Below, piece by piece: positions 4,863 to 64,000 of a stretch of DNA of 64,000 nucleotides. Within the stretch, counting starts at the first letter, position 1, and the number at the start of each line of letters is the position of its first letter. Position numbers and translations under genes: made by a program. The notes under the pieces are model-generated. The model saw nothing but the letters and a program-made list of their open reading frames with translations. It was not told where the DNA came from and did no database searches. Origin of the DNA: Herpetosiphon giganteus (lineage in GTDB: Bacteria; Chloroflexota; Chloroflexia; Chloroflexales; Herpetosiphonaceae); assembly GCF_016907925.1 (NCBI RefSeq), contig NZ_JAFBCZ010000010.1, positions 1-64,000 on the forward strand, given 5' to 3'.

Positions 4863-5939
4863 TTATCGCTCGCGGAGATAGAGCGCGATATCAGTGCCCT
4901 GATTATTGCGCGGATCGATATAGGCCTTGGGAATAAATCCAACTCGCTCGAAACCTGCTTGCTCGTAGGCCGCAGGCAACGCCGGATGATCAAGCGGCAC
5001 ATGCCCAAGCAACTGGTTGGCAAAATGGTTGGCTGGTAATTGGCGCAGCATCTCATTCAACAAGATCGGCGCTTGCTCGATATGGCCTGCTGCCAAATAA
5101 CAATCAACCAAAAGTTGATGTTGCTGGTAATAGGGGTTTGGCCATGGATAAACTGGTGGCATAATGCTGCCCCAGCCAACAATCGCCCCGCTGGCAGCGG
5201 TCAGGCCCGTTAATACCGCCACATCGCCCTCTTGTTGCTCGAAGGCTGGAAAGAAATCGTCGGCTCCAATATTGGCATCACCAAGCATTTGCAAGCCGTA
5301 ATGGCGCACAATCCGATTATCTGGCGCATTGAACAACGATAATAACAATGGCACATCGGCCCGATCCGATGATCGCATAAAGACCGCGGTACTGGGCGCA
5401 AATAAATGCTTGAGGAAGTTTTCGGGCGAATCGCCATCGCTAATGCGCCATGCAATGCGATTGCCTGTGCGGCTACTTTCGCTTTCATTAATCGTCACAA
5501 AATGATACTGCTCATAAAACGACATGGCACTATCATTATGTTCAGTGCTAATAATGAGCGCTTGACCGCCACTTGCCTCAAAATCGTTAATCGCCAACTT
5601 CAACAACTTACTAGCCAAGCCTCGGCGACGATACGGCTCAGCTGTATACACCCGATGAATCGAACCCAATTGTGGACAGAATTTTGAACGACACAGCAGC
5701 ATAGCGCTCACAGGCCGTCCCTGCACTTGGGCCAAATACCATACATCTTGGCTAAAGCGCAGCCCAACAAGGCGCAGGTGCATATCAAATGACCAACGCC
5801 ATGCCACCGCCGGATCTTCACCCCATCGGTGATAAAGCTCCTCAAGCGGTTGGGCAAATTCAGAAGCAAGCGGTTGGATGCGCGAGAGGACTGCCTCAGT
5901 TCCTGCACCCAGAGCAATCCGCGCAACTTCTTCGTACAT
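4863..5939 (-). CDS. GNAT family N-acetyltransferase
   Basis: A 358-residue acetyltransferase. An N-terminal GNAT domain contains RVYTAEPYRRRGLASKLL, the acetyl-CoA binding loop, followed by IISTEHNDSAMSFYEQYHF. The C-terminal half looks like a second, degenerate GNAT domain (AVLTGLTAASGAIVGWGSI, then AAYEQAGFERVGF). The start at 5939 (MYEEVARIAL) has GGAGGG a few bases upstream; the frame remains open for 52 codons further but lacks a comparable ribosome site there. It is the first gene of a two-gene unit with the propeller lipoprotein, and it faces away from the secreted LVIVD protein. Confidence 0.85.
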   Translation of the reverse strand: MYEEVARIALGAGTEAVLSRIQPLASEFAQPLEELYHRWGEDPAVAWRWSFDMHLRLVGLRFSQDVWYLAQVQGRPVSAMLLCRSKFCPQLGSIHRVYTAEPYRRRGLASKLLKLAINDFEASGGQALIISTEHNDSAMSFYEQYHFVTINESESSRTGNRIAWRISDGDSPENFLKHLFAPSTAVFMRSSDRADVPLLLSLFNAPDNRIVRHYGLQMLGDANIGADDFFPAFEQQEGDVAVLTGLTAASGAIVGWGSIMPPVYPWPNPYYQQHQLLVDCYLAAGHIEQAPILLNEMLRQLPANHFANQLLGHVPLDHPALPAAYEQAGFERVGFIPKAYIDPRNNQGTDIALYLRER

Positions 5940-22979: not shown

Positions 22980-24347
22980 ATGAATCCTCAAACTGCAAAA
23001 CAATCAGCACACTATATCACGCAGCCGCCGCGCCAATGGATGGATCAGGCCGTGCCGTGGTTGATCGTCGGCCTACTTTTGCCACTCTACTGGCTGATGA
23101 GTAGCCCAACTATTAGCACAGCCTATGGCAGCAGCGACAGCGGCGAGTTAGCCACCGCGCTCTGGTTTGGCGCAGTGCCGCATCCACCAGGCTCGCCAAC
23201 CTATTTGCTGATTGGGCAAGTTGCGCTCCACTGGTTTGGCGGCGAGCTAGCCCAACGCTTAGCATTGTTGAGTGGCTTAGCAACGGCCTTGAGTGCAGGC
23301 ATCGTCGCAGCCTGTGTTGGATTAAGCGCCAGCGACCAGCTACGCTCGATCCGCTGGAGCGCAATGTTGGCCGCAGGCTTGGGCTTTGGCTTGAGCCAAC
23401 GAATTTGGCAACAAGCCCTAGTCGTCGAAGTCTATGCCTTGGCGAATGTGTTTCAGCTGCTTTTGCTGTGGCTCAGCCTGCGTTGGCAGCGCTGGCAACA
23501 AGCGCGTACCCTGGCGGCACTTGGCTTGGTCTGCGGCTTGGGCTTAGGCGTGCAACTACCAGTTGCTGCGTGGTTGGTCGGCTTTGGGGTGTGGTGGTTT
23601 AAGGCCAAGTGGGCGATTAAATGGCCGCAAATTGGGCTATTTTTGCTTATGCTGCTGCTTGGCCTAAGTAGCTATCTCATATTGCCGTGGCGGGGCGCGG
23701 TGGTTCCACAAGCAAGTTGGGGCGATTGGAGCAGTGTTGCTGGCGCAATCAGTCACATCAGCGCTAGCGAATATCGCTATTTAGTTGGCGCTGTGCCACT
23801 GAGCGAGCAAATTCAACGCTGCATTTTAGCAATTCGCGATTTGCTCGCTAGCTATTGGTGGATCGTCGGCCCGTTGCTCATTGGCTGTGGTTGGCAAAAA
23901 ATCACGCTGGCGCAACGCTGGCTGCTGGTTGCTTGGGCTGGCGTAACCCTGCTTTGGGCTATCAGTTATGGTGGCGCTGATGCCCAAGTCTATCTCTTGC
24001 CAATTCATGGCTTGGCCGCTTGGCTGCTTGGCATGGGCGTAGTGTGGTTGGCACAAAAGCCAAGGCTGGCAGGTTGGATTTGGCTCGCGCCAATGTTGAT
24101 ATTAATCTGCTTGCCCTTGGGTTGGCAATTTTCGCTGCGTAACCAAACCCAAAGCCGCGATCAAGCAATCGCGCTGCTGCACCAACAACCAGCCAATGGC
24201 CAATTGCTGAGCAACGACGATCAAACAACATTTAGTGCCTGGTATGTGCAATCGGTGTTGGGAGTGCGGCCTGATGTGCAAATTATTGATCAGCGCCTAC
24301 AACAACAGTTGTGGTATCAGCGACGGGAAGGGTTATCAACTCGCTAG
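22980..24347 (+). CDS. DUF2723-type membrane protein (protein O-mannosyltransferase-like), possibly shortened
   Basis: A 455-residue polytopic protein. Its N-terminal loop contains SDSGELATALWFGAVPHPPG, the DUF2723 signature (DxGE...HPPGxPxY). DUF2723 proteins, which resemble TMEM260, are multi-span glycosyltransferase-like enzymes. About ten membrane spans follow. The C-terminal soluble tail is only about 50 residues (VRPDVQIIDQRLQQQLWYQRRE), shorter than the domain usually found there, and its last 65 bp overlap the 3' end of the convergent phosphatase gene. It may be truncated. The ATG has no clear ribosome site; the start is uncertain and could be at 23040. It diverges 6 bp from the GT2 gene. 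Confidence 0.7.
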   Translation: MNPQTAKQSAHYITQPPRQWMDQAVPWLIVGLLLPLYWLMSSPTISTAYGSSDSGELATALWFGAVPHPPGSPTYLLIGQVALHWFGGELAQRLALLSGLATALSAGIVAACVGLSASDQLRSIRWSAMLAAGLGFGLSQRIWQQALVVEVYALANVFQLLLLWLSLRWQRWQQARTLAALGLVCGLGLGVQLPVAAWLVGFGVWWFKAKWAIKWPQIGLFLLMLLLGLSSYLILPWRGAVVPQASWGDWSSVAGAISHISASEYRYLVGAVPLSEQIQRCILAIRDLLASYWWIVGPLLIGCGWQKITLAQRWLLVAWAGVTLLWAISYGGADAQVYLLPIHGLAAWLLGMGVVWLAQKPRLAGWIWLAPMLILICLPLGWQFSLRNQTQSRDQAIALLHQQPANGQLLSNDDQTTFSAWYVQSVLGVRPDVQIIDQRLQQQLWYQRREGLSTR

Positions 24348-25674
24348 GATCTTTAATAATATCAACGATCACCAAGGTCAGGTCGTCTGCTTGGCGGGCA
24401 GCGCCACGGAAGCGATCAACATCGGCACAATAGGCATCAATCAAGCCAGCAGTATTTTCTGCTTCCAGCTCACGCACCGCCAAGCACCAACGATCAAAGC
24501 TATACAACTCGCGTTGCTCGTTCATGGTTTCAATTACGCCATCGGTATAGACCACTAAGCGATCATTGGCTTGCAATTGGATGGTTTGCTCAGCATAGGG
24601 AAAGTTGCGAATTGAGCGTAGCGGCGTGCCAAAGGCCTCTAATTCCTGAATCGCGCCATTGCGCCGCAAGAGCGGAAACGGGTGGCCTGCATTGGCAAAG
24701 CGCAATTGATGATTGCGCAAATTGAGCACCCCATACCAAACTGTCATCATCTGATTAACCGCATCGTCGGCGTGCAAAATCGCGTTGACATGGCGCAACA
24801 CATGGCCCGGGTTGCGCGAACGACGAGCCTCGCTCCGAATAATTGAGCGCGTCATGGCCATCACCATGGCGGCAGCAACGCTCTTGCCAGTTGCATCGCC
24901 GACAATAATTGCAATTTCATCGTCATTCAAACGAATCAGATCATACAAATCGCCGCTGGTTTCGAGCGCTGGCTGCACCGAAGCGCCAATATCGAGACAT
25001 TCGCTATAGCGTTGTGGCTTGGGATAGAGGTCTTGTTGCAAATTGCGCGCAATCGCCAACTCCTGGCGAATCAGCGTATCTTGCATTAATTGCTGACGCG
25101 CTGCTTGCAGTGAGAGCATCGAATTATCAAGTGTGCGTTGGTAAATCCAAGCTACGGCAGTAATAATAATAAAAAAGCTTAAGATTGGAATTGTATCAGC
25201 AATCCACTGCAAACTAGGCTTATAGCCCATATAAAGCACAACAGCCGTATTAACTACAACAGAAATTGCTGATGCTTTGCGTGTTGTAAAAAACACAAAA
25301 AACATAATACAAACGCCAAGCATATACGAAAATAACGTTTGGTTTATGCTATTTTCAGAATTTGTCAAAACCAACATAATAAATAGAAGGTTGGTATAAC
25401 TACAGAAAAAATAATACACAAATAAAGAATTCTTTTTCTTCAATACAATAGATATTAAGTAAAAAGATCCAGCATTAATTGCTAATGATAAAATTGCAGG
25501 AATAATATTACGATCGGGGTTCAACAAAAAAACGATTACAATTAATAAACCAAAGAAGAAATGAACTCCAATAATCGTTTTAATCAGGTTCTTAAGAAAA
25601 ACAGATTTTCGTTGAGAATCTGTCTGAGTTTCTAGGTTCTGTGAGCTAAGATCGTTGTTTGGTTGAAAGATCAT
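24283..25674 (-). CDS. Membrane-anchored PP2C-type (SpoIIE/RsbU) serine phosphatase
   Basis: A 463-residue protein. Residues 30-185 form about six membrane helices (IIGVHFFFGLLIVIVFLL, then YYFFCSYTNLLFIMLVL, then SFFIIITAVAWIY). A coiled linker (LQAARQQLMQDTLIRQELAIARNLQQDLYPKPQR) leads to a complete PP2C/SpoIIE domain: GDLYDLIRL, IIVGDATGKSVAAAMVM, FANAGHPFPLLRR, VYTDGVIETMNE and DDLTLVIVDI. It should dephosphorylate an anti-sigma-factor antagonist of the STAS type; no partner lies beside it. The membrane half is far richer in A and T than the catalytic half. ATG 25674 is chosen because a further TTG upstream falls inside the terminator of the previous gene. Confidence 0.9.
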   Translation of the reverse strand: MIFQPNNDLSSQNLETQTDSQRKSVFLKNLIKTIIGVHFFFGLLIVIVFLLNPDRNIIPAILSLAINAGSFYLISIVLKKKNSLFVYYFFCSYTNLLFIMLVLTNSENSINQTLFSYMLGVCIMFFVFFTTRKASAISVVVNTAVVLYMGYKPSLQWIADTIPILSFFIIITAVAWIYQRTLDNSMLSLQAARQQLMQDTLIRQELAIARNLQQDLYPKPQRYSECLDIGASVQPALETSGDLYDLIRLNDDEIAIIVGDATGKSVAAAMVMAMTRSIIRSEARRSRNPGHVLRHVNAILHADDAVNQMMTVWYGVLNLRNHQLRFANAGHPFPLLRRNGAIQELEAFGTPLRSIRNFPYAEQTIQLQANDRLVVYTDGVIETMNEQRELYSFDRWCLAVRELEAENTAGLIDAYCADVDRFRGAARQADDLTLVIVDIIKDPSELITLPVADTTTVVVGADQ

Positions 25675-25679
25675 AAGGC

Positions 25680-25707
25680 AAAAGAGCCACAATTAGGATT
25701 GTGGCTC
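25680..25707 (-). terminator. Terminator of the Nif11-like peptide gene
   Basis: A 10-bp inverted repeat (25684-25693 and 25698-25707) with a 4-nt loop, followed on the minus strand by TTTTGCC. Confidence 0.75.
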
Positions 25708-55339: not shown

Positions 55340-55705
55340 TTAAGAATTCGAGATTGATGATTGTTGGGTGTTGGTATAAGCCGCCAAATCTTGTTCTTCG
55401 ATCATCGGCATAAAGCGCGTCATCTCGACCATCTTGAAGATTTTTTGATGATGCGGGCTGACGTGTAAACAAAAGACTTTATAGCCATTCTTGCGCGCAG
55501 CCACCACAAACTTCAGCAGCACCGAAATGCCAGCCGAGTTGATAAAGGCCACATCGGCAAAATCTAAAACCGTAATTGGTTTCATTTGAGTACAAGCATG
55601 CTCGATCGCTGCCGCCGAAACGGCATCGACGCTGTTGGTCAAAATATGCAACAGCACGACATCATCCCACTCTTCTCGGCGAATTACCGATTGTACGTCG
55701 CTCAT
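55340..55705 (-). CDS. STAS-domain anti-sigma-factor antagonist
   Basis: A 121-residue STAS protein. The phosphorylatable Ser motif lies in FADVAFINSAGISVLLKFVV, and the fold matches RsbV/SpoIIAA. It would bind and sequester an anti-sigma HATPase when dephosphorylated. AGGAGATC precedes ATG 55705; upstream the open frame runs into the repeat spacer. The HATPase gene is next, upstream, separated by a 283-bp repeat-rich spacer, so they may be separate transcripts. Confidence 0.9.
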   Translation of the reverse strand: MSDVQSVIRREEWDDVVLLHILTNSVDAVSAAAIEHACTQMKPITVLDFADVAFINSAGISVLLKFVVAARKNGYKVFCLHVSPHHQKIFKMVEMTRFMPMIEEQDLAAYTNTQQSSISNS

Positions 55706-55829
55706 AATAGATCTCCTAGGTTGGTCAACGCGGCCAACTCTGCCTTGATCATAGTTGAGCAAGCGATTTTTGGCAACCAAGCTGCATGAAATTTTGATGA
55801 CAGATCTTAAGAACAGAGAGCATTGATAA

Positions 55830-55985
55830 GGATGAAGGATGAAGGATGAGGGATGAGAGATGAAGCCTAAAACCGATTGCCCTTCGCGTTCTTCGCGATC
55901 TTTGCGGTTCCATTCTTCGTGCGCTTCGTGTCCTTCGTGGATCAACGCTAGCCCCGACCCCTGATCCCCAGCCCCCGACCCCCAC
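55830..55985. repeat. Repeat-rich spacer between STAS and HATPase genes
   Basis: It holds GGATGAAGGATGAGGGATGA (near 55829-55862) and CTTCGTG-type 9-mers in inverse orientation (near 55890-55945), ending with CCCCGACCCC-like text. It belongs to the same word family as 3421-3824. It separates the STAS gene from its probable partner. Confidence 0.7.
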
Positions 55986-55988
55986 TCG

Positions 55989-56405
55989 CTACTTTGCTTT
56001 GAAAATTCGCAGCCGCAAACTGGTGCCAGTGCCAGAGCTTTGCACCTCGTATTGATCGACCAACTCGCTGATCAGATATGAGCCAAAGCCGCGCAACATG
56101 CCTGATTCAAGATTATCTTCCTCGACCACGCGGCGCTCGGTGTTGAAGTGCTCGATGCCTTTGCCGTGATCGATAATTTCAACTTCTAGTTGATCGGCGT
56201 GCAGCGAAAAGATGACTTCGACCGAGCCAACCATGCCGCCACCGCCATGCTCAATCGCGTTGGTTACGGCTTCGCTCACCGCCAGCTTGAGATCTTCGAC
56301 GCGCTCACGCGGAAAGCCCATGGTGCTGCCAAGCTCGGCGGCGCTGGCCCGCACAACCCGCTCAAAAACCAGGTCAGATGGAATGTTGAGGTGAATCCGA
56401 TTCAT
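55989..56405 (-). CDS. Anti-sigma-factor serine kinase-like HATPase (RsbW type)
   Basis: A 138-residue GHKL/HATPase_c protein. It has the N-box EAVTNAIEHGGGGM, the G1 box VEIIDHGKGIEHF and the G2-like GMLRGFGSYLISELV, as in RsbW/SpoIIAB. It would bind and phosphorylate a STAS antagonist, and in the classic system hold a sigma factor; no sigma factor gene lies here. It overlaps the TPR gene by four bases (ATGA), so the two are coupled. Confidence 0.9.
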   Translation of the reverse strand: MNRIHLNIPSDLVFERVVRASAAELGSTMGFPRERVEDLKLAVSEAVTNAIEHGGGGMVGSVEVIFSLHADQLEVEIIDHGKGIEHFNTERRVVEEDNLESGMLRGFGSYLISELVDQYEVQSSGTGTSLRLRIFKAK

Positions 56406-57958
56406 CGTGAACCTCCACGGGCCATTGCGCGGCCCTTTTGGGGTAATTGTTCTTGTTGATTGATCAGATGTTCATAGCGGCGAAGGTAGGCTTTGCCCAA
56501 GGAGCTGTTGCCAACTTGCAGGTAACATGCCCCCAGATAATAGAGTGCTTGGGTATGGCGTGGGTTACGCCGCAGCACTTTTTCAAATAACGGGATGGCT
56601 TGAGCTGGTTCGAGCATTTCTTTATAACACGTGCCCAGCATAAAGGTGGTTTCAATATCATCGGGCCAGTGCATTAGCACATGGCTAAATTCACGTGATG
56701 CCAAATCGTAGCGTCGCCGCCGCGTGTACATATAGCCCAAATCGTAGCGCAATGAATGGGCATGCGGTGCTAATTCAACCGCTTTGCGCCAAGCAGCCAA
56801 AGCCCAACTTTCGTGGCCCAACACGGTATACATAAAGCCCAACAAATAGTAGGCGTTGGGATCTTTGGGCAAGAGCTGCACCGCGCGTTCAAAAGCACGC
56901 ATGGCGGCATGATGTTTTTCTAAATCATAGAGCAGCTTGCCCATTTGCAAGAAAATTTGGCCATCGTTGGGACGCAATTTGGCAGTGCTATACAAATGGT
57001 TGTAGGCCTCGCGATGCTTGCCCTGAAAACGCAAAATCGCGCTGATACGTAGCCGAGCATCAACATAATAGCGATCTTGCGGCGGAATCTGGCCATACTC
57101 TTGGAACGCCAATTCCCAGCGGCGCGCCCGCGCCAACAAATTACCAAGCAAATAGCGCGCCCGATGTTCGGTTGGCCGCCATTTGAGCAGGGCTTCGTAA
57201 ATGCGCTTGGCATCTTCGTCATAGCCTTGGGCCTTGAGGTCGTCGCTCAAACGGTAGTACCAATTGGCAACCTCTTGCTCCGATTTGCTCACCAGCACTT
57301 CATCGGGGCCAACGCTGGGCGAGATAAAGGTTGGCTCAACCCGCAACGCCTCGGCAAAACAGCGCTGAGCCAATTCGTGAGCACCATGGGCTTGGTGCAT
57401 CAAACCCATGTAATACAAGGGTTCGCCAGCGTAGGGCCGCAACTCGCGAGCCGAGGTAAAGTGAATATAGGCGCGGCCAGCGTCGTCGAGCATCTGATAG
57501 GCGCGACCAAGTGCAAAATGGGCCTCGTACAAGCCATTGTTATGCTCAAGCGCTTCCTTGAAAGCGCCAATTGCGCGATCAATTTGGCGCATCGCCCCAA
57601 AAGCCACGCCTAAGTTATAGTGCGCTTCGGCCAGTTGCGGATCGGTTTGTACCGATTCCAAATATTCGCGCTGGGCAGTTGGCCAATCATCTTGAAAAGC
57701 GCAGGCATTGCCAATATACAAATAAATAATCGCCCGCTCGCGATCGTAAATTTGCGATTTCTCATCGCCTTCGACATAGGCCGCGATCAAGGCAGTTTTG
57801 AAATGCTCGATCGCATCAGGATAATTGGCGGCCAAATAGGCTTTGATCCCGCGTCCAAACGCAGCACCCAAGCGCGTCCCAGCCATAAAACGCTCGCTCC
57901 CAGCAAAGGTATCGAGGTCCAGCGGCATTACATTGAGCGTGTCAACATTGGTAGTCAT
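56402..57958 (-). CDS. TPR-repeat protein (518 aa)
   Basis: A 518-residue protein made of at least ten TPR units: IEHFKTALIAAYVEGDE, AQREYLESVQTDPQLAEAHYNLGVAFG, AIGAFKEALEHNNGLYEAHFALGRAY, ALRVEPTFISP, IYEALLKWRPTEHRARYLLG, AFERAVQLLPKDPNAYYLLGFMY and later repeats. It is probably a protein-interaction scaffold in the cytosol. It sits between the HATPase and phosphatase genes in the signalling cluster, so it may present partners to the switch. It has no obvious enzyme domain. Confidence 0.85.
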   Translation of the reverse strand: MTTNVDTLNVMPLDLDTFAGSERFMAGTRLGAAFGRGIKAYLAANYPDAIEHFKTALIAAYVEGDEKSQIYDRERAIIYLYIGNACAFQDDWPTAQREYLESVQTDPQLAEAHYNLGVAFGAMRQIDRAIGAFKEALEHNNGLYEAHFALGRAYQMLDDAGRAYIHFTSARELRPYAGEPLYYMGLMHQAHGAHELAQRCFAEALRVEPTFISPSVGPDEVLVSKSEQEVANWYYRLSDDLKAQGYDEDAKRIYEALLKWRPTEHRARYLLGNLLARARRWELAFQEYGQIPPQDRYYVDARLRISAILRFQGKHREAYNHLYSTAKLRPNDGQIFLQMGKLLYDLEKHHAAMRAFERAVQLLPKDPNAYYLLGFMYTVLGHESWALAAWRKAVELAPHAHSLRYDLGYMYTRRRRYDLASREFSHVLMHWPDDIETTFMLGTCYKEMLEPAQAIPLFEKVLRRNPRHTQALYYLGACYLQVGNSSLGKAYLRRYEHLINQQEQLPQKGRAMARGGSR

Positions 57959-57968
57959 AACAGTTCCC

Positions 57969-59066
57969 TTAGGACGATCCTTTGGTGGATTGGAGCAAGC
58001 GATATTCTTCGATCACTGGGCGCAGTTGCGCTTGAAGCTCGCGGGCAATTCCACGGCCAAATTGGCTGGCCACCATTTCATTCAACGGACGCAACAACTC
58101 TAGGCATTGGTCGGGCGTGCGGCTTGCGCCAACAAGCGCTAAGCTTTGCCACCATTCATCAGCAGTCATTGGCCCAACTACATCGGCCACAATGCTATGC
58201 ATTTCATCAAGCAAATTGGCCAAACGCCGCCGCACGAGCACCATTGTCACATCATCGTGTTTGAGCTGGCCTTGGGTCCAAGCGCGAACTTCGCTGAGCA
58301 CGCGGGCCATCAAGGCCCGTGGCTTAAGGTGGCCAACTGTTTGTAAAAGGTTCTGAAAGCGTGGGTAGCCATATAAAACTTGATGCTCATTGGTCGCTTC
58401 AACAACCCCGTCAGTGTACAACATGACCGAATCGCCATAATTCAGTTGCAAGATGGATTCAGTATAGCAATCGATCTCCATCACGCCGAGCGGCACACCT
58501 GACGTTTCGATTTCAACAACTTGATTATTGATCACAATCAGATAATTGTGCCCAGCATTTGCCAATTGCATCATGCCAGTTTGCGGGTTGATTAATGCAT
58601 AGAGCATCGTAACCATGCCCTGCGGCATTTCTTCGATCAAAATATTATTAACTGCGGCCAAAGTGTGGCCTGGCGATTGGCCACGCCGCACTTCGGCCCG
58701 AAAGACCGTGCGCGCCACCGCCATCCGCAAAGCAGCAGGCAAGCCCTTGCCGCTAACATCGCCAATCATAATTCCTTGCGAGTCGTTGACCGCCAGAAAA
58801 TCATAGAGGTCGCCGCCAAGCTCGCGGGCTGGCAACGAAACTGCGCTCAGCTCCCAACCCGGCAGGCGCGGCACGGTTTCGAGCATCAAGCCTTGCTGCA
58901 AATCACGCGCCAATTGCAAATCTTGTTCCAGCTCAGCTTGACGTTGGTCGGGCACTGGCGCTGCGGGCACTGGCGCAGGCAAAGCAGGCTCAAGCGGAAT
59001 CGCCACCCGACCATGAGCACGATGACTGAGCAGTGAACTATAGATTGCTGGCTGTACTTTTTGCAT
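57969..59066 (-). CDS. PP2C-type phosphatase (RsbU/SpoIIE)
   Basis: A 365-residue cytosolic phosphatase. The N-terminal 50 residues are Pro/Ala-rich, followed by a coiled helix (QAELEQDLQLARDLQQGL). The PP2C core reads GGDLYDFLAVND, IMIGDVSGKGLPAALRMAVA, NAGHNYLIVINN, LYTDGVVEATNE and DDVTMVLVRRR. A C-terminal extension of about 100 residues has no known motif. It should dephosphorylate the STAS antagonist. It lies four bases after cheR and ten bases before the TPR gene. Confidence 0.9.
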   Translation of the reverse strand: MQKVQPAIYSSLLSHRAHGRVAIPLEPALPAPVPAAPVPDQRQAELEQDLQLARDLQQGLMLETVPRLPGWELSAVSLPARELGGDLYDFLAVNDSQGIMIGDVSGKGLPAALRMAVARTVFRAEVRRGQSPGHTLAAVNNILIEEMPQGMVTMLYALINPQTGMMQLANAGHNYLIVINNQVVEIETSGVPLGVMEIDCYTESILQLNYGDSVMLYTDGVVEATNEHQVLYGYPRFQNLLQTVGHLKPRALMARVLSEVRAWTQGQLKHDDVTMVLVRRRLANLLDEMHSIVADVVGPMTADEWWQSLALVGASRTPDQCLELLRPLNEMVASQFGRGIARELQAQLRPVIEEYRLLQSTKGSS

Positions 59067-59070
59067 AAAA

Positions 59071-60528
59071 TTAAAATGTTCCTTGGCTGGCTTCTAAGCT
59101 GCCAATCCAGCGTTCGCAGGCTGAACGCAACCAGCCGACCGCGATGCCGTCAATGACGGTGCTGCTTGAATGTTGGGCCAACTTGCGTAAGGCATGTTGA
59201 TAATAGCGTAAGGCTGCGGTTTCCCGCCCTTGGTGGCGATAGCTTTCGGCCAAATGAAAGGCGATTGTCGGCGATTCGGGCACCAAATAGCTGGCACGCT
59301 CCAAATAATTAATCGCTTTATCCCACGCACCTTGGTTGAGCTCGATCATACCCAGCACCACATAGGCAGCATCTTGCAAGACATCAAGTTCTAAGGCGCG
59401 GCGGGCCTCGGCAGCAGCTTGCTCGTTTTGGCCAAGGTCGGCATGCAATTGAGCAGCCAAAGCCAAAATTGCTGGCTGACGCTGATTAGGCGCAATAGTT
59501 GCCAAAAGGCTTAATCCACGCCGTTGCTGGCCTTGTGCCCGCAAAGTACGGGCTTCTGCCAACAAACTTGCCACATCAGGCACTTTCGGCACATCAACAG
59601 TAACGATAGGCCGCGTAATTGGCCGTGGGCGCGCTGGAGTTGGCTCGACTGGCTTGTTGAGCGGCGTAGTAATGGGCCGTTCGACCGTCGGGCGTGGCTT
59701 AGGCTGACCATCGCCTTTGCGATAAATGAAAGCGCCAGCCACCTCGACCGTTTCAAAGCGATCAAAAATGCCCCACAGCGATTCAGAAAAGCCCAACAGC
59801 AAATAGCCACCAACCGCCATCGCCGCATAAATTCGTTCGATCAATTGGCGACATGTTTCAAGCTGAAAATAGATTGTGACGTTTTGGCAAAACACCACAT
59901 CAAGCTGATAGGCCCAATGCGGCAGTGCATCAAGCAAATTGTGCTGCTCGAATTGTACCAAGGATCGCGCTGCTTCGCTGACGCGCAACGACCCATTGGG
60001 CTGTTGCTCAAACCATTGTTTGTAGTCGGCTTGAACATTGGCCAACGAACGCCCACGATATTCGCCAGCAATCGCGCGCTCCAGCGGCACATGGCTTAAA
60101 TCGGTGGCCCAAATTGAAATCGGGCGGCTTGGCGGATTGCCCCATTGCTGCAAGGCAACCATGGCCATGCTATACGGCTCCTCGCCAGTTGAGCAGCCAG
60201 CGCTCCAGCAACGCAGCGGACGCAACGGCGAACGAACACGCTGAAGTTCAGGGAAAATATGCTCGCGCAAAGCCCGAAAATGAGCTGGATTGCGAAAAAA
60301 TTGAGTTTCGTGATTGGCCAAGCGCTCAGCCAACCACTGTACCTCGCTCGCATTGGTCGGGTCTTGAATGCGCAACGTATAGGCCGCTGGGCTAATTTGC
60401 AATTGGCGATAGCGCTCCTGAACAAACATGCGACCTTGGCGCATGCGACTATCATCGAGATACAAGCCCGCTCGGCGAGCGAGATAATCGCGGATGATCG
60501 TCCATTGTTCAGTGCTTAACTCACTCAT
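59071..60528 (-). CDS. cheR: CheR methyltransferase with C-terminal TPR domain
   Basis: A 485-residue protein. The N-terminal half is a CheR-type methyltransferase: ANHETQFFRNPAHFRALRE, RCWSAGCSTGEEPYSMAMVA (SAM loop), SIWATDLSHVPL and DVVFCQNVTIYF. It methylates Glu on chemoreceptors. The C-terminal part (residues 320-485) holds TPR units (LLAEARTLRAQGQQRRG, then LELDVLQDAAYVVLGMIELN), a fusion seen in alternative-function chemosensory systems. It overlaps cheB by four bases. Confidence 0.93.
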   Translation of the reverse strand: MSELSTEQWTIIRDYLARRAGLYLDDSRMRQGRMFVQERYRQLQISPAAYTLRIQDPTNASEVQWLAERLANHETQFFRNPAHFRALREHIFPELQRVRSPLRPLRCWSAGCSTGEEPYSMAMVALQQWGNPPSRPISIWATDLSHVPLERAIAGEYRGRSLANVQADYKQWFEQQPNGSLRVSEAARSLVQFEQHNLLDALPHWAYQLDVVFCQNVTIYFQLETCRQLIERIYAAMAVGGYLLLGFSESLWGIFDRFETVEVAGAFIYRKGDGQPKPRPTVERPITTPLNKPVEPTPARPRPITRPIVTVDVPKVPDVASLLAEARTLRAQGQQRRGLSLLATIAPNQRQPAILALAAQLHADLGQNEQAAAEARRALELDVLQDAAYVVLGMIELNQGAWDKAINYLERASYLVPESPTIAFHLAESYRHQGRETAALRYYQHALRKLAQHSSSTVIDGIAVGWLRSACERWIGSLEASQGTF

Positions 60529-61607
60529 CGACGTTCAGCTTCACTGAGCAGCGCCACCAACCGCGGCGCAATCGAATCGGCAGCCAAAAATTCCATCGCC
60601 GCCCCAACTTCCTCGGCGGCTCGCGGCATGCCCCAAATCGCGCTGGTTGTGCGATCTTGGGCAATTGTGCGAGCGCCTGCCCGCCGCAAGGCCAACAACC
60701 CTTGTGCGCCGTCGCGGCCCATGCCAGTTAACAGCACGCCAATCGTTTGCTTGGGCAATACCTTGGCCGCTGATTGCATGGTTACGTCAACCGATGGATA
60801 CAGCAAGTTATCTGGTTGCGATTCAAGATGAACCGTCCAGTTGCCATCGATGCGCAAATGATGGGTATCGGGAGCAACATAGACATGGCCGTTTTTCAAA
60901 CTGCCGCGATGCTGCGCCAATTCCACCTTCAAGGGCGAATGATTGTCCAACCAGTCTACCATTGTACCAACAAATCCCTCGGCGATGTGCTGCACAATGA
61001 TAATGCTTGCGGGGATGCTTGCAGGCAGGCTATGCAGGAGTTTGTATAACACACGCGGGCCGCCCGTCGAAGCGCCAACCACAATCAGCCAGCGTTGGCT
61101 TGGCGGGCTAATTGAAGCCATCAATAAAGGAATATTGGTCTCGGTAGTTGGCGATTTGCGCCGTCGCCCGCGCAAGTGGGTTACAACTTTGACCCGCGAA
61201 AGTACCTTAACTCGTTCCAATAGTCGCATCCGATTTGCTTCACCTTGGGCAAGAGTTAAATCGGTGGGTTTTTCCCACACTTCCAAGGCTCCGGCGTTGA
61301 GCATCTGAAAGGTTAAATTGCGATCATGGCGGGTCAGCGATGAGGTAATCACCAAAATTGGGGTTGGATGATAGGCCATAATTTCTTCGGTGGCCTGCAA
61401 ACCATCCATCACTGGCATGCGCACATCCATCGTGATAATATCTGGTTGCAAGGCTGCCGCCAGTTGCACCGCCTCACGCCCATCACGGGCCTCGCCAACT
61501 ACTTGAATCGCCGAATCACTGGCTAAAATAGTGCTGATGACTCGGCGCGAAACCGCCGAATCATCGACAACTAAGACGCGAATTGGTGCAAGCGGCCCTG
61601 TCATCAT
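60525..61607 (-). CDS. cheB: Chemotaxis response regulator-methylesterase CheB
   Basis: A 360-residue protein: an N-terminal receiver (RVLVVDDSAVSRRVI; phosphorylated Asp in DIITMDVRMPVMDG) and a C-terminal methylesterase with the catalytic Ser in VVGASTGGPRVLYKLL, then QHIAEGFVGTM and LLTGMGRDGAQGLL. It removes methyl groups from receptors or deamidates them. Its ATG overlaps the CheY stop by one base. MM at the start leaves a second ATG at 61604. Confidence 0.95.
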   Translation of the reverse strand: MMTGPLAPIRVLVVDDSAVSRRVISTILASDSAIQVVGEARDGREAVQLAAALQPDIITMDVRMPVMDGLQATEEIMAYHPTPILVITSSLTRHDRNLTFQMLNAGALEVWEKPTDLTLAQGEANRMRLLERVKVLSRVKVVTHLRGRRRKSPTTETNIPLLMASISPPSQRWLIVVGASTGGPRVLYKLLHSLPASIPASIIIVQHIAEGFVGTMVDWLDNHSPLKVELAQHRGSLKNGHVYVAPDTHHLRIDGNWTVHLESQPDNLLYPSVDVTMQSAAKVLPKQTIGVLLTGMGRDGAQGLLALRRAGARTIAQDRTTSAIWGMPRAAEEVGAAMEFLAADSIAPRLVALLSEAERR

Positions 61608-61966
61608 TACATACCCAACAACAGTTTGACCCGATTGGGCAAATCGAGCAAATCAAGGTCTTTGTTGAGATAATCATCGACTCCGGCCTCAAAGCCAGCT
61701 CGTTTATCATCCATTGAGGTCAACATGATAATTGGCAATTCTTCAAATAAGGGATTAGCGCGCAACTGACGGCAAACCTCGTAGCCATCAATTCCAGGCA
61801 TTTGCACATCCAACACCACTAAATCAGGCGTGAGATCGCCGATTTTTTGCAGTGCTTCCTCGCCGCTATAGGCCAAATCGACGGCATAGCCATACATTTC
61901 GAGCCGCATTTTGACAATATCGGTAACCAGTTTGCTATCGTCAACAACTAAGATTCGTTCACTCAT
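61607..61966 (-). CDS. cheY: CheY-like response regulator
   Basis: A 119-residue single receiver domain: ILVVDDSKLVTDIVKMRLEM, the phosphorylatable Asp in DLVVLDVQMPGIDGYEV, Thr/Ser region LPIIMLTSMDD and Lys in DDYLNKDLD. No output domain. It receives phosphate from the adjacent CheA. It lies 50 bases after cheA and one base before cheB. Confidence 0.9.
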   Translation of the reverse strand: MSERILVVDDSKLVTDIVKMRLEMYGYAVDLAYSGEEALQKIGDLTPDLVVLDVQMPGIDGYEVCRQLRANPLFEELPIIMLTSMDDKRAGFEAGVDDYLNKDLDLLDLPNRVKLLLGM

Positions 61967-62016
61967 TGAAAAACTCCTCGCAGGGAAAGATTGGCAGTAA
62001 TCAAGGCCAGGCTACT

Positions 62017-64000
62017 TTAGCGGCCAAGTAATTGATGAATCGTTTCGAGCAAGTTGCTTTGATCAAACTGGCTTTTGACGATATAGGCTTGTGCACCAGC
62101 CAATAAGCCTTCACGCCGATCGCTATCACGGGCTAGGCTTGTGATAATGATAATTGGCAGTTGGCGCAAACGTTCATGGCCACGCACCCGACGGGTCAAC
62201 TCAAAGCCAGTCAGCAACGGCATTTCAACATCGCTTACCAGCAGATCGTAGGAATTGAGGTTGAGCTTGTCAAGCGCATCTTGGCCGTTAATCGCGGTTT
62301 CGACGATGTAGCCCGCCGATTGTAGCATCGAGCGTAGTAGTTCGCGGGTGGTAAACGAATCTTCGGCAACCAGCAATTTGGCTGGCTGACGTTTGCTGGG
62401 CGCTGGCAAGGCCACTGGTTTGCCCCATTCGCGCGCCCGCGCCGCAATCGCCAACGGATTGAGCACTAGCACCAAACGCCCATCGGGCAGGGCAATGGCC
62501 CCAGTGCATAAGCGCTGTTCGTTCAATAAGGCCCCCAGCGATTTGACCACAACTTCGCGTTCATCAACCAATTTATCGACGAGCAAGGCCAAAGGCCGAT
62601 TGGCCGGCCCCAAAACCACCAGATTGGAAATATCCGATGGCTGCGGCAACGGTCCACGCTGCTCAAGCAATGGTGCCAGCGCCACAATGCTCACGCTCCG
62701 TTCATCAACCCGCACGCTCGGGCGACCTTCGACCATTTGAATTTGCGCGCCCGAAACCCGCCGCCCACCCAAACAGGCGGTCGATGGCAAGGCATAGGTG
62801 GTTCCAGCCACATCAAACAACAGCACCCGCGTGGTTAGCAAGGTAATTGGCAAAATCAGGGTGAAAGTCGTGCCTTGGCCCAGCACGGAATGCACATCAA
62901 CCCGTCCGCCAACTTCACTCACAGCGGCGCGCACCACATCCATGCCCACGCCACGCCCAGAAACATCGGTGATGATTGCGCTGGTGGAAAAACCAGGCTG
63001 CCAGATTAACTCCAAAGCTTCTTCATCGCGCAACCGCGCAGCCGATTCAGTATCGATAATGCCGCGTTTAATGGCTGTTGCCCGAATCACCGCTGGATCA
63101 ATGCCACGGCCATCGTCGCTGATGATAATTTCAATCGTGCCACCCAACGAGCGTGCTTGCAAGCGCAAGGTCGCTTCAGCAGGCTTGTTGGTTTTAATTC
63201 GATCATCGGGCGTTTCAACCCCATGATCAAGCGCGTTGCGCACCAAATGCAGCAACGGATCAGCCATCAACTCGATCACTTTGCGGTCGGCCTCGGTGGT
63301 TTCGCCTTCGGTGATTAAGTTAACTTCTTTGCCCAACGAACGGGCTAATTCGCGCACTGCTCGCGGAATCGGCGCAAACAAACCAGCGACTGGCTGCAAG
63401 CGGGTCGCCATCACCTCGGCCTCAAGTTCATCGACCAAGGCTTCACTGGCGGCACTATGGCTGCTCCAACGCTCGCTGAGCAAGCGCAATTGGTTGCGGG
63501 TCGATTGAGCTAAATTTTGCAATTGGCTGGCGAGTTCGCTAGCCTCACGCCGTTGCTGAAAGGTCACGCGCTGACCAGTTAAACGCTCGCTCAGTTGTTG
63601 GCTCAGACGTTCGCTTTTGCTCAGCAATTTATCTAAGGCTTCAAGATCGGCCACATGCTCAAGATGCAACTGACGGGTAACGACCAACTCACCAGCCGTA
63701 TTCAATAAACGATCCAAGCGTGAAATTGGCACGCGCACTGTCGAACGCGTGGTATTGATCAGCTTTGGAGCTTCGCCCGTAGGTCTAGCTTTTTTCGGGG
63801 CTGGGGGCGCGACAACTGGGGCTGGCTCAGGCTTGGGTTGCTCAAGCACAACTGGCACTGGCTTGGGTTCTGGCTCAGCCACAGGCTCAACAATCGGCGC
63901 TGGCTTTTTGGCTGGTGGCGAAGTTGGCAGGCTTTCGCCAGCTGCTAATGCATTCAGTTGCTCGACCAACATATCGACATTGGGATCAGTCGGCGGCGGC
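62017..64000 (-). CDS. cheA: Hybrid chemotaxis histidine kinase CheA (partial)
   Basis: The frame runs off the right edge (about 660 residues visible), so the N-terminal HPt domain is out of view. Visible parts: a Pro/Glu-rich linker; the dimerisation and catalytic domain with RVPISRLDRLLNTAGELVVTR, HLVRNALDHGVETPDDR (N box), GRGIDP and VSGRGVGMDVVRAAV; a CheW-like domain; and a C-terminal receiver (LLVAEDSFTTRELL, Asp in LLVSDVEMPLLTGFEL). A fused receiver gives a hybrid kinase like those in complex chemosensory systems. The gene is followed by cheY. Confidence 0.93.
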   Translation of the reverse strand, partial: PPPTDPNVDMLVEQLNALAAGESLPTSPPAKKPAPIVEPVAEPEPKPVPVVLEQPKPEPAPVVAPPAPKKARPTGEAPKLINTTRSTVRVPISRLDRLLNTAGELVVTRQLHLEHVADLEALDKLLSKSERLSQQLSERLTGQRVTFQQRREASELASQLQNLAQSTRNQLRLLSERWSSHSAASEALVDELEAEVMATRLQPVAGLFAPIPRAVRELARSLGKEVNLITEGETTEADRKVIELMADPLLHLVRNALDHGVETPDDRIKTNKPAEATLRLQARSLGGTIEIIISDDGRGIDPAVIRATAIKRGIIDTESAARLRDEEALELIWQPGFSTSAIITDVSGRGVGMDVVRAAVSEVGGRVDVHSVLGQGTTFTLILPITLLTTRVLLFDVAGTTYALPSTACLGGRRVSGAQIQMVEGRPSVRVDERSVSIVALAPLLEQRGPLPQPSDISNLVVLGPANRPLALLVDKLVDEREVVVKSLGALLNEQRLCTGAIALPDGRLVLVLNPLAIAARAREWGKPVALPAPSKRQPAKLLVAEDSFTTRELLRSMLQSAGYIVETAINGQDALDKLNLNSYDLLVSDVEMPLLTGFELTRRVRGHERLRQLPIIIITSLARDSDRREGLLAGAQAYIVKSQFDQSNLLETIHQLLGR

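Follow-up and report, generated by a model that had tools for sequence, protein, structure and literature searches.

A single-receptor chemosensory operon and an RsbU/RsbW/RsbV-like partner switch share one conserved gene block in Herpetosiphon and its order

On one contig of the 6.16 Mb genome of Herpetosiphon giganteus, the genes of a complete chemosensory pathway lie on the minus strand next to those of an RsbU/RsbW/RsbV-like partner switch, and both sets have been kept together over most of the order, which suggests that the two function as a single signalling device. We give a probability of about 0.5 to the reading that a single-receptor operon of the Frz/Wsp kind is joined here to an RsbU/RsbW/RsbV-like switch and works as proposed below. 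The window, that is, the whole stretch of DNA analysed, comprises the first 64,000 nucleotides of the contig (C10:1-64000), and the nearest named relatives of the host are Herpetosiphon geysericola, H. llansteffanensis and H. aurantiacus.

Organisation of the block and its chemosensory genes

The initial annotation had proposed eight genes on the minus strand between positions 55340 and 64000, and all of them were found by combining open reading frames with Pfam searches, with their catalytic motifs intact. The tight spacing claimed from cheY to the HATPase gene was borne out by the measured intergenic gaps, which are -1 base for cheY/cheB, -4 for cheB/cheR, +4 for cheR/PP2C, +10 for PP2C/TPR and -4 for TPR/HATPase. 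An open reading frame between the PP2C and TPR genes of a relative (L048) had no Pfam match and was taken as a product of chance.

Neither a CheW gene nor a receptor had been seen at first. This is correct within the window, but immediately beyond its right edge, on the same strand, an MCP gene (contig 64339-65841) is followed by two CheW-type genes, cheW2 (contig 65864-66283) and cheW1 (contig 66276-66710). Reading the sequence to the right of position 64000 thus recovered both kinds of gene, whose apparent lack was due to the window edge that hid them. The cheA gene (62017..64000, minus strand) also crosses this edge to an ATG start at contig position 64323, and its product contains Hpt, dimerisation, HATPase and CheW domains and a C-terminal receiver domain (Pfam). 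A CheY-binding P2 domain was not detected in CheA with Pfam, and a proline-rich linker is found in its usual place. Downstream, all on the minus strand, come cheY (61607..61966), which encodes a single receiver domain (Pfam REC), cheB (60525..61607), which encodes a receiver and a methylesterase domain (Pfam REC and CheB, 2.2e-57; NCBIfam CheB above cut-off), and cheR (59071..60528), whose product carries the methyltransferase domain at residues 74-263 (Pfam CheR, 1.5e-51) and C-terminal TPR repeats at residues 353-450. The MCP has 500 aa, six hydrophobic segments and no further Pfam domain, and each of its arms, assessed with the 40H length class in view, measures around 20 heptads, a by-eye estimate from the length of the conserved region. 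CheW1 reaches 71.6 bits with the Pfam CheW model and CheW2 23.0 bits, slightly below the cut-off of 23.5. CheW2 (L003:10864-11283) is strongly diverged, so that its counterparts in many relatives are difficult to identify, and it may bind a partner other than the usual receptor/CheA pair.

The genome encodes one MCP and one CheA, and CheW domains above the cut-off occur only in CheW1 and in CheA; this is therefore the sole chemosensory pathway found in this Herpetosiphon. A promoter-like block, TTGACA-18-TATGCT (contig 66846-66817, minus strand), recognised by its sequence and conservation, precedes cheW1 and is identical in five Herpetosiphon genomes, with diverged surroundings. An OmpR-type regulator gene upstream of cheW1 was rejected as a member, as it is not in the block outside Herpetosiphon. 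The chemosensory part had been noted earlier in H. llansteffanense, where passages on its 93rd-largest contig, our L036, refer to an "entire chemosensory system" and do not mention the phosphatase, kinase and TPR genes (PMC6210107).

The partner-switch genes

The second half of the block starts with a PP2C/SpoIIE-type phosphatase of 365 aa (57969..59066, minus strand; Pfam SpoIIE/PP2C, 9.6e-46). Its metal-site motifs GGDxYDF, GDVxGxG, YTDG and DDxT are conserved across orthologs, and its matches in the PDB include Rv1364c and RssB-type phosphatases of Pseudomonas. Pfam and sequence analysis recognised neither a sensor domain nor a membrane segment in the phosphatase. The next gene on the same strand encodes a TPR protein of 518 aa (56402..57958; Pfam TPR), which we propose as the hub of the system; AlphaFold models, built from four near-identical input sequences, were poor for both proteins (mean pLDDT of 46 for PP2C and 54 for TPR). 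It is followed by an RsbW/SpoIIAB-like serine kinase of 138 aa (55989..56405, minus strand; HATPase_c_2, PF13581, 1.4e-24), in which the ATP-binding N, G1 and G2 boxes are intact and conserved across orthologs and which matches the RsbW structure 6m36 at 2.3e-13. The last gene encodes a STAS antagonist of 121 aa (55340..55705, minus strand), assigned by Pfam (STAS, 4.8e-07) and by an ortholog alignment. The predicted phospho-acceptor is Ser57 (codon 55537-55535), located in F-I-N-S-A-G; the consensus is FINS(A/G/S)GIS and the serine is invariant in 32 sequences. A start at TTG 55945, which over-extends the protein through a repeat, was rejected in favour of ATG 55705, where the conserved protein begins.

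Other partner-switch parts are common in this genome, which holds several further RsbW-like kinases and 46 STAS matches. Two more clusters that combine RsbW-like kinases with STAS genes lie at G000:C25:46600-50686, where a PP2C is also near, and at G000:C19:32925-34179, so the genome has several partner switches. The window also contains, at 24283-25692 and distant from the block, another gene for a SpoIIE-type phosphatase (469 aa).

As first noted, the gene set has no sigma factor. The genome contains 30 sigma-70 region-2 matches, none of them on contig C10, and no sigma factor was found among the flanking genes examined in relatives. Because the sigma factor is missing, the system was not classed as a sigma-controlling Rsb system. 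It could still be a classical anti-sigma switch in which the HATPase sequesters a sigma factor whose gene lies outside the block; Che signalling would then activate the PP2C, the STAS protein would be dephosphorylated and the sigma factor freed, with transcription as the output. The likeness of the HATPase to RsbW and SpoIIAB, the resemblance of the PP2C to Rv1364c and RssB-type phosphatases, which belong to known sigma-factor switches, and the 30 sigma-70 matches would fit such a scheme. However, besides the absence of a sigma gene from the block, the contig and the relatives' examined flanks, the HATPase scores below the NCBIfam equivalog cut-offs (79.4 bits versus 145 for RsbW, 66.1 versus 135 for SpoIIAB) and the scheme does not account for the TPR gene, so that we regard this explanation as rather unlikely.

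Transcription of the STAS gene

The initial annotation described one continuous string of genes up to and including STAS. Sequence features are consistent with an operon running from cheW1 to the HATPase gene, whereas in Herpetosiphon the STAS gene is probably transcribed apart. A promoter-like TTGCCA-17-TATGAT ahead of STAS (55748..55776, minus strand), identified by its match to the consensus and its conservation, is preserved together with a ribosome-binding site in 6/6 Herpetosiphon genomes. These include G070 and G274, where STAS lies downstream of the HATPase gene at a distance of around 30 kb (G070:C4:148529-179910 and G274:C3:397479-428772), attributable to an insertion or a rearrangement. 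In the remaining Herpetosiphon species the two genes are close together, and the majority of the other families have them overlapping or almost adjoining. The probable separate unit in Herpetosiphon, with its displacement by 30 kb in two species, speaks against a single device.

Between the HATPase and STAS genes lies a repeat-rich spacer (55777..55988, minus strand) which, by sequence reading and comparison, contains CACGAAG/CGCGAAG-type repeats and varies between species. The degenerate repeat occurs in this spacer (window 55840-55935, minus strand) and upstream of cheW1 (L003:12035-12130), and similar copies are present in the corresponding spacer of sister species and elsewhere in the window.

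Conservation across the order

The order MCP-CheA-CheY-CheB-CheR-PP2C-TPR-HATPase-STAS was found by tblastn in three families, with 25 of the sampled non-Herpetosiphon genomes showing it; the count was made by hand from tblastn tables on the relatives' regions, and the CheR and HATPase matches of L148 are broken. A PP2C ortholog is present in 63/82 genomes of the order. Of 40 genomes sampled from the order, 38 have the TPR ortholog; one further member of the class has it as well, and at 1e-50 no others were found among 400 genomes drawn from the phylum. This contiguity in three families supports the view of the Che and the Rsb-like genes as a single conserved unit, and when relatives were examined for separate Che and Rsb-like loci, which would have spoken against it, the lone split genome, G142, turned out to break between CheA and CheY rather than at the junction of Che and switch genes. 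The shared order, the spread of the phosphatase and the presence of a single MCP and a single CheA argue for the coupled device that we favour.

Median identities to the other families are 76% for CheY, 72% for TPR, 69% for STAS, 57% for HATPase, 50% for PP2C, 49% for CheB, 48% for MCP, 46% for CheA and 44% for CheR. Because the gene order is kept though the proteins have diverged to this extent, the arrangement is far from chance. The input side varies, and CheY, TPR and STAS are held; CheY, the most conserved member, has 63 of its 119 residues invariant in 31 sequences. The high conservation of these three proteins, together with that of the catalytic motifs, likewise favours the coupled device.

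In members of another family, a lone receiver protein is encoded 3′ of STAS on the same strand (L149:931-3525 and L048:17070-17450), and L149 also has a receiver-HD-type (HD_5) protein after STAS on that strand. These genes hint at a link between c-di-GMP and the block.

Natural variants and the role of the TPR protein

Three genomes of the genus g10 (G214, G253 and G260) keep CheW-MCP-CheA-CheY-CheB-CheR-TPR, and orthologs of PP2C, HATPase and STAS are absent genome-wide from them: nothing matches STAS at 1e-8 or PP2C at 1e-60, and the best HATPase match is a paralog with 36-38% identity. The PP2C/kinase/STAS trio has been lost there as a unit. In G281, which belongs to the same class but to a different family, the TPR, PP2C, STAS and HATPase genes lie together, and the Che genes are not next to them but on another contig. 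Taken together, these two variants single out the TPR protein as what the two halves share. In G142, which has a single CheA, CheW-MCP-CheA lies around 0.54 Mb from CheY-CheB-CheR-PP2C-TPR-HATPase-STAS, and this split places CheY on the switch side. Where the initial annotation saw the TPR protein as a scaffold, these differences in gene content point instead to a bridge between Che and the switch as its likeliest role. The joint loss of the trio, the TPR gene that accompanies the trio in G281 and the CheY-CheB-CheR genes that stay with it in G142 all support the coupled device, and g10, which indicates that Che and TPR can function in the absence of the switch, counts against it. A further co-absence gives weak support: G134 is without CheW, the TPR protein and any pilus/secretion motor ATPase above cut-off, and in its congener G380 the TPR gene and the motor ATPases are also absent. 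The weight of these co-absences is small because the genomes of this lineage are small.

The same variants bear on other ways of connecting the two halves, or of leaving them unconnected. The TPR protein might itself be the effector, on which CheY~P and unphosphorylated STAS both dock, so that the switch would gate the output of chemotaxis directly, and neither a sigma factor nor transcription would be involved; on balance we doubt this. Signals might also flow in reverse, with the phosphorylation state of STAS acting, via TPR or CheR-TPR, on the methylation of the receptor or on CheY output to adjust the gain slowly. The persistence of Che-TPR in g10, where the trio looks like a dispensable modulator, and the N-terminal membrane region of the G281 phosphatase, which could sense directly, would agree with this idea. 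The phosphatases of Chloroflexales, however, have no recognised sensor domain and probably receive their input from a neighbour, which makes reverse flow improbable. Indeed, that the phosphatase is devoid of a recognised sensor or membrane segment in Chloroflexales, whereas the one with no Che neighbours in G281 has a membrane region, is an argument for the coupled device. Finally, the modules might be co-inherited for the same cell state and share nothing but expression, since either half can be found alone (g10, G281) and the correlations between protein distance matrices, 0.76-0.97, are what joint vertical descent would produce and are by themselves no proof of interaction. Gene neighbourhood may indeed mean co-regulation alone. 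Yet the order has been kept over deep divergence, the break of G142 falls inside the Che genes and leaves CheY-CheB-CheR with the trio, and the trio is lost as a unit; we consider this the least probable of the explanations.

Proposed mechanism

According to the coupled device, the six-helix membrane MCP, together with CheW1 and CheW2, would control the hybrid CheA, which would phosphorylate CheY, and the receptor would be adapted by CheB and CheR-TPR. The TPR protein would read CheY and bring it to the PP2C/kinase/STAS trio, where the kinase is expected to phosphorylate STAS on Ser57 and the PP2C to remove the phosphate. The level of unphosphorylated STAS could in this way serve as an adjustable set-point. 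By analogy, unphosphorylated STAS is likely to be the active form, as proposed for HmpV (PMC8256260). The most likely job of the whole device would be to control the surface behaviour of the filaments, either gliding or pilus activity. The carriers that can be placed are Herpetosiphon and, probably, Chloroflexus and Roseiflexus, all of them gliding filaments; a motility output is favoured because of these carriers and because this is the sole Che system of the Herpetosiphon genome. We infer the protein-protein steps and the direction in which control runs from the genes and their arrangement, and the output in motility from what is known of the carrier genera. The role in predation that had been considered at first is unlikely, as the block is common to other families of the order and most of its carriers lie outside the family of Herpetosiphon.

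Relation to known systems and significance

The closest biological parallel, by layout and role only, is Nostoc punctiforme, a filamentous glider in which the chemotaxis-like Hmp system and the HmpU/HmpV/HmpW switch are both needed for motile hormogonia; the STAS protein HmpV was proposed as the output, no adjacent sigma factor was reported, and the sigma factor required for hmpV is not the one that the remaining genes need (PMC6495340, PMC8256260). This dependence of hmpV parallels the separate promoter-like block of STAS described here. The Nostoc loci are dispersed (hmpA-F at Npun_5959-5964, hmpU/hmpW at 5134-5135 and hmpV at 5169; PMC10581220), whereas here a single block also includes CheB, CheR and a TPR gene between PP2C and kinase. 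A hybrid CheA, a CheR with C-terminal TPR, CheB, two CheW-type proteins and one MCP are features of Wsp and Frz (PMC5907407). The block shares them with Frz of Myxococcus and Wsp of Pseudomonas, its CheA having no detected P2, and differs in that it has no diguanylate cyclase or FrzZ-type output and in that a single CheY is followed by PP2C, TPR, kinase and STAS. With RsbU/RsbW/RsbV and SpoIIE/SpoIIAB/SpoIIAA of Bacillus it has in common a PP2C, a HATPase serine kinase and a STAS protein with a conserved serine; unlike them, it has no sigma factor alongside, an extra TPR gene, sub-equivalog scores and chemosensory neighbours. In the HptB pathway of Pseudomonas, receiver, phosphatase and kinase domains are combined in one protein, whereas the present block encodes CheY, phosphatase and kinase as individual proteins and includes chemoreceptor and methylation genes. 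The likeness lies in histidine phosphorelay genes that accompany a PP2C/STAS switch, and in Pseudomonas the HptB/PA3346/PA3347 (HsbR/HsbA) phosphorelay feeds such a switch and affects motility (PMC8256260). No description of a joint Che/partner-switch block was found in the literature searched, most subscription journals lying outside it.

If the coupled device holds, a chemosensory array feeds an Rsb-like switch without a local sigma factor, and its two halves are joined in one conserved block and not dispersed as in Nostoc. If instead the TPR protein is the effector, gliding filaments would have a new means of connecting a fast chemosensory signal with a phospho-switch that works slowly. The natural variants, in which the trio is lost, the Che genes are not adjacent or the block is split, are ready-made comparisons. 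To our knowledge, the steering of gliding in filamentous Chloroflexota is not understood. In Herpetosiphon, the whole chemosensory repertoire lies in one block with the switch, which brings the question of whether gliding or its regulation depends on it within reach of a few knockouts.
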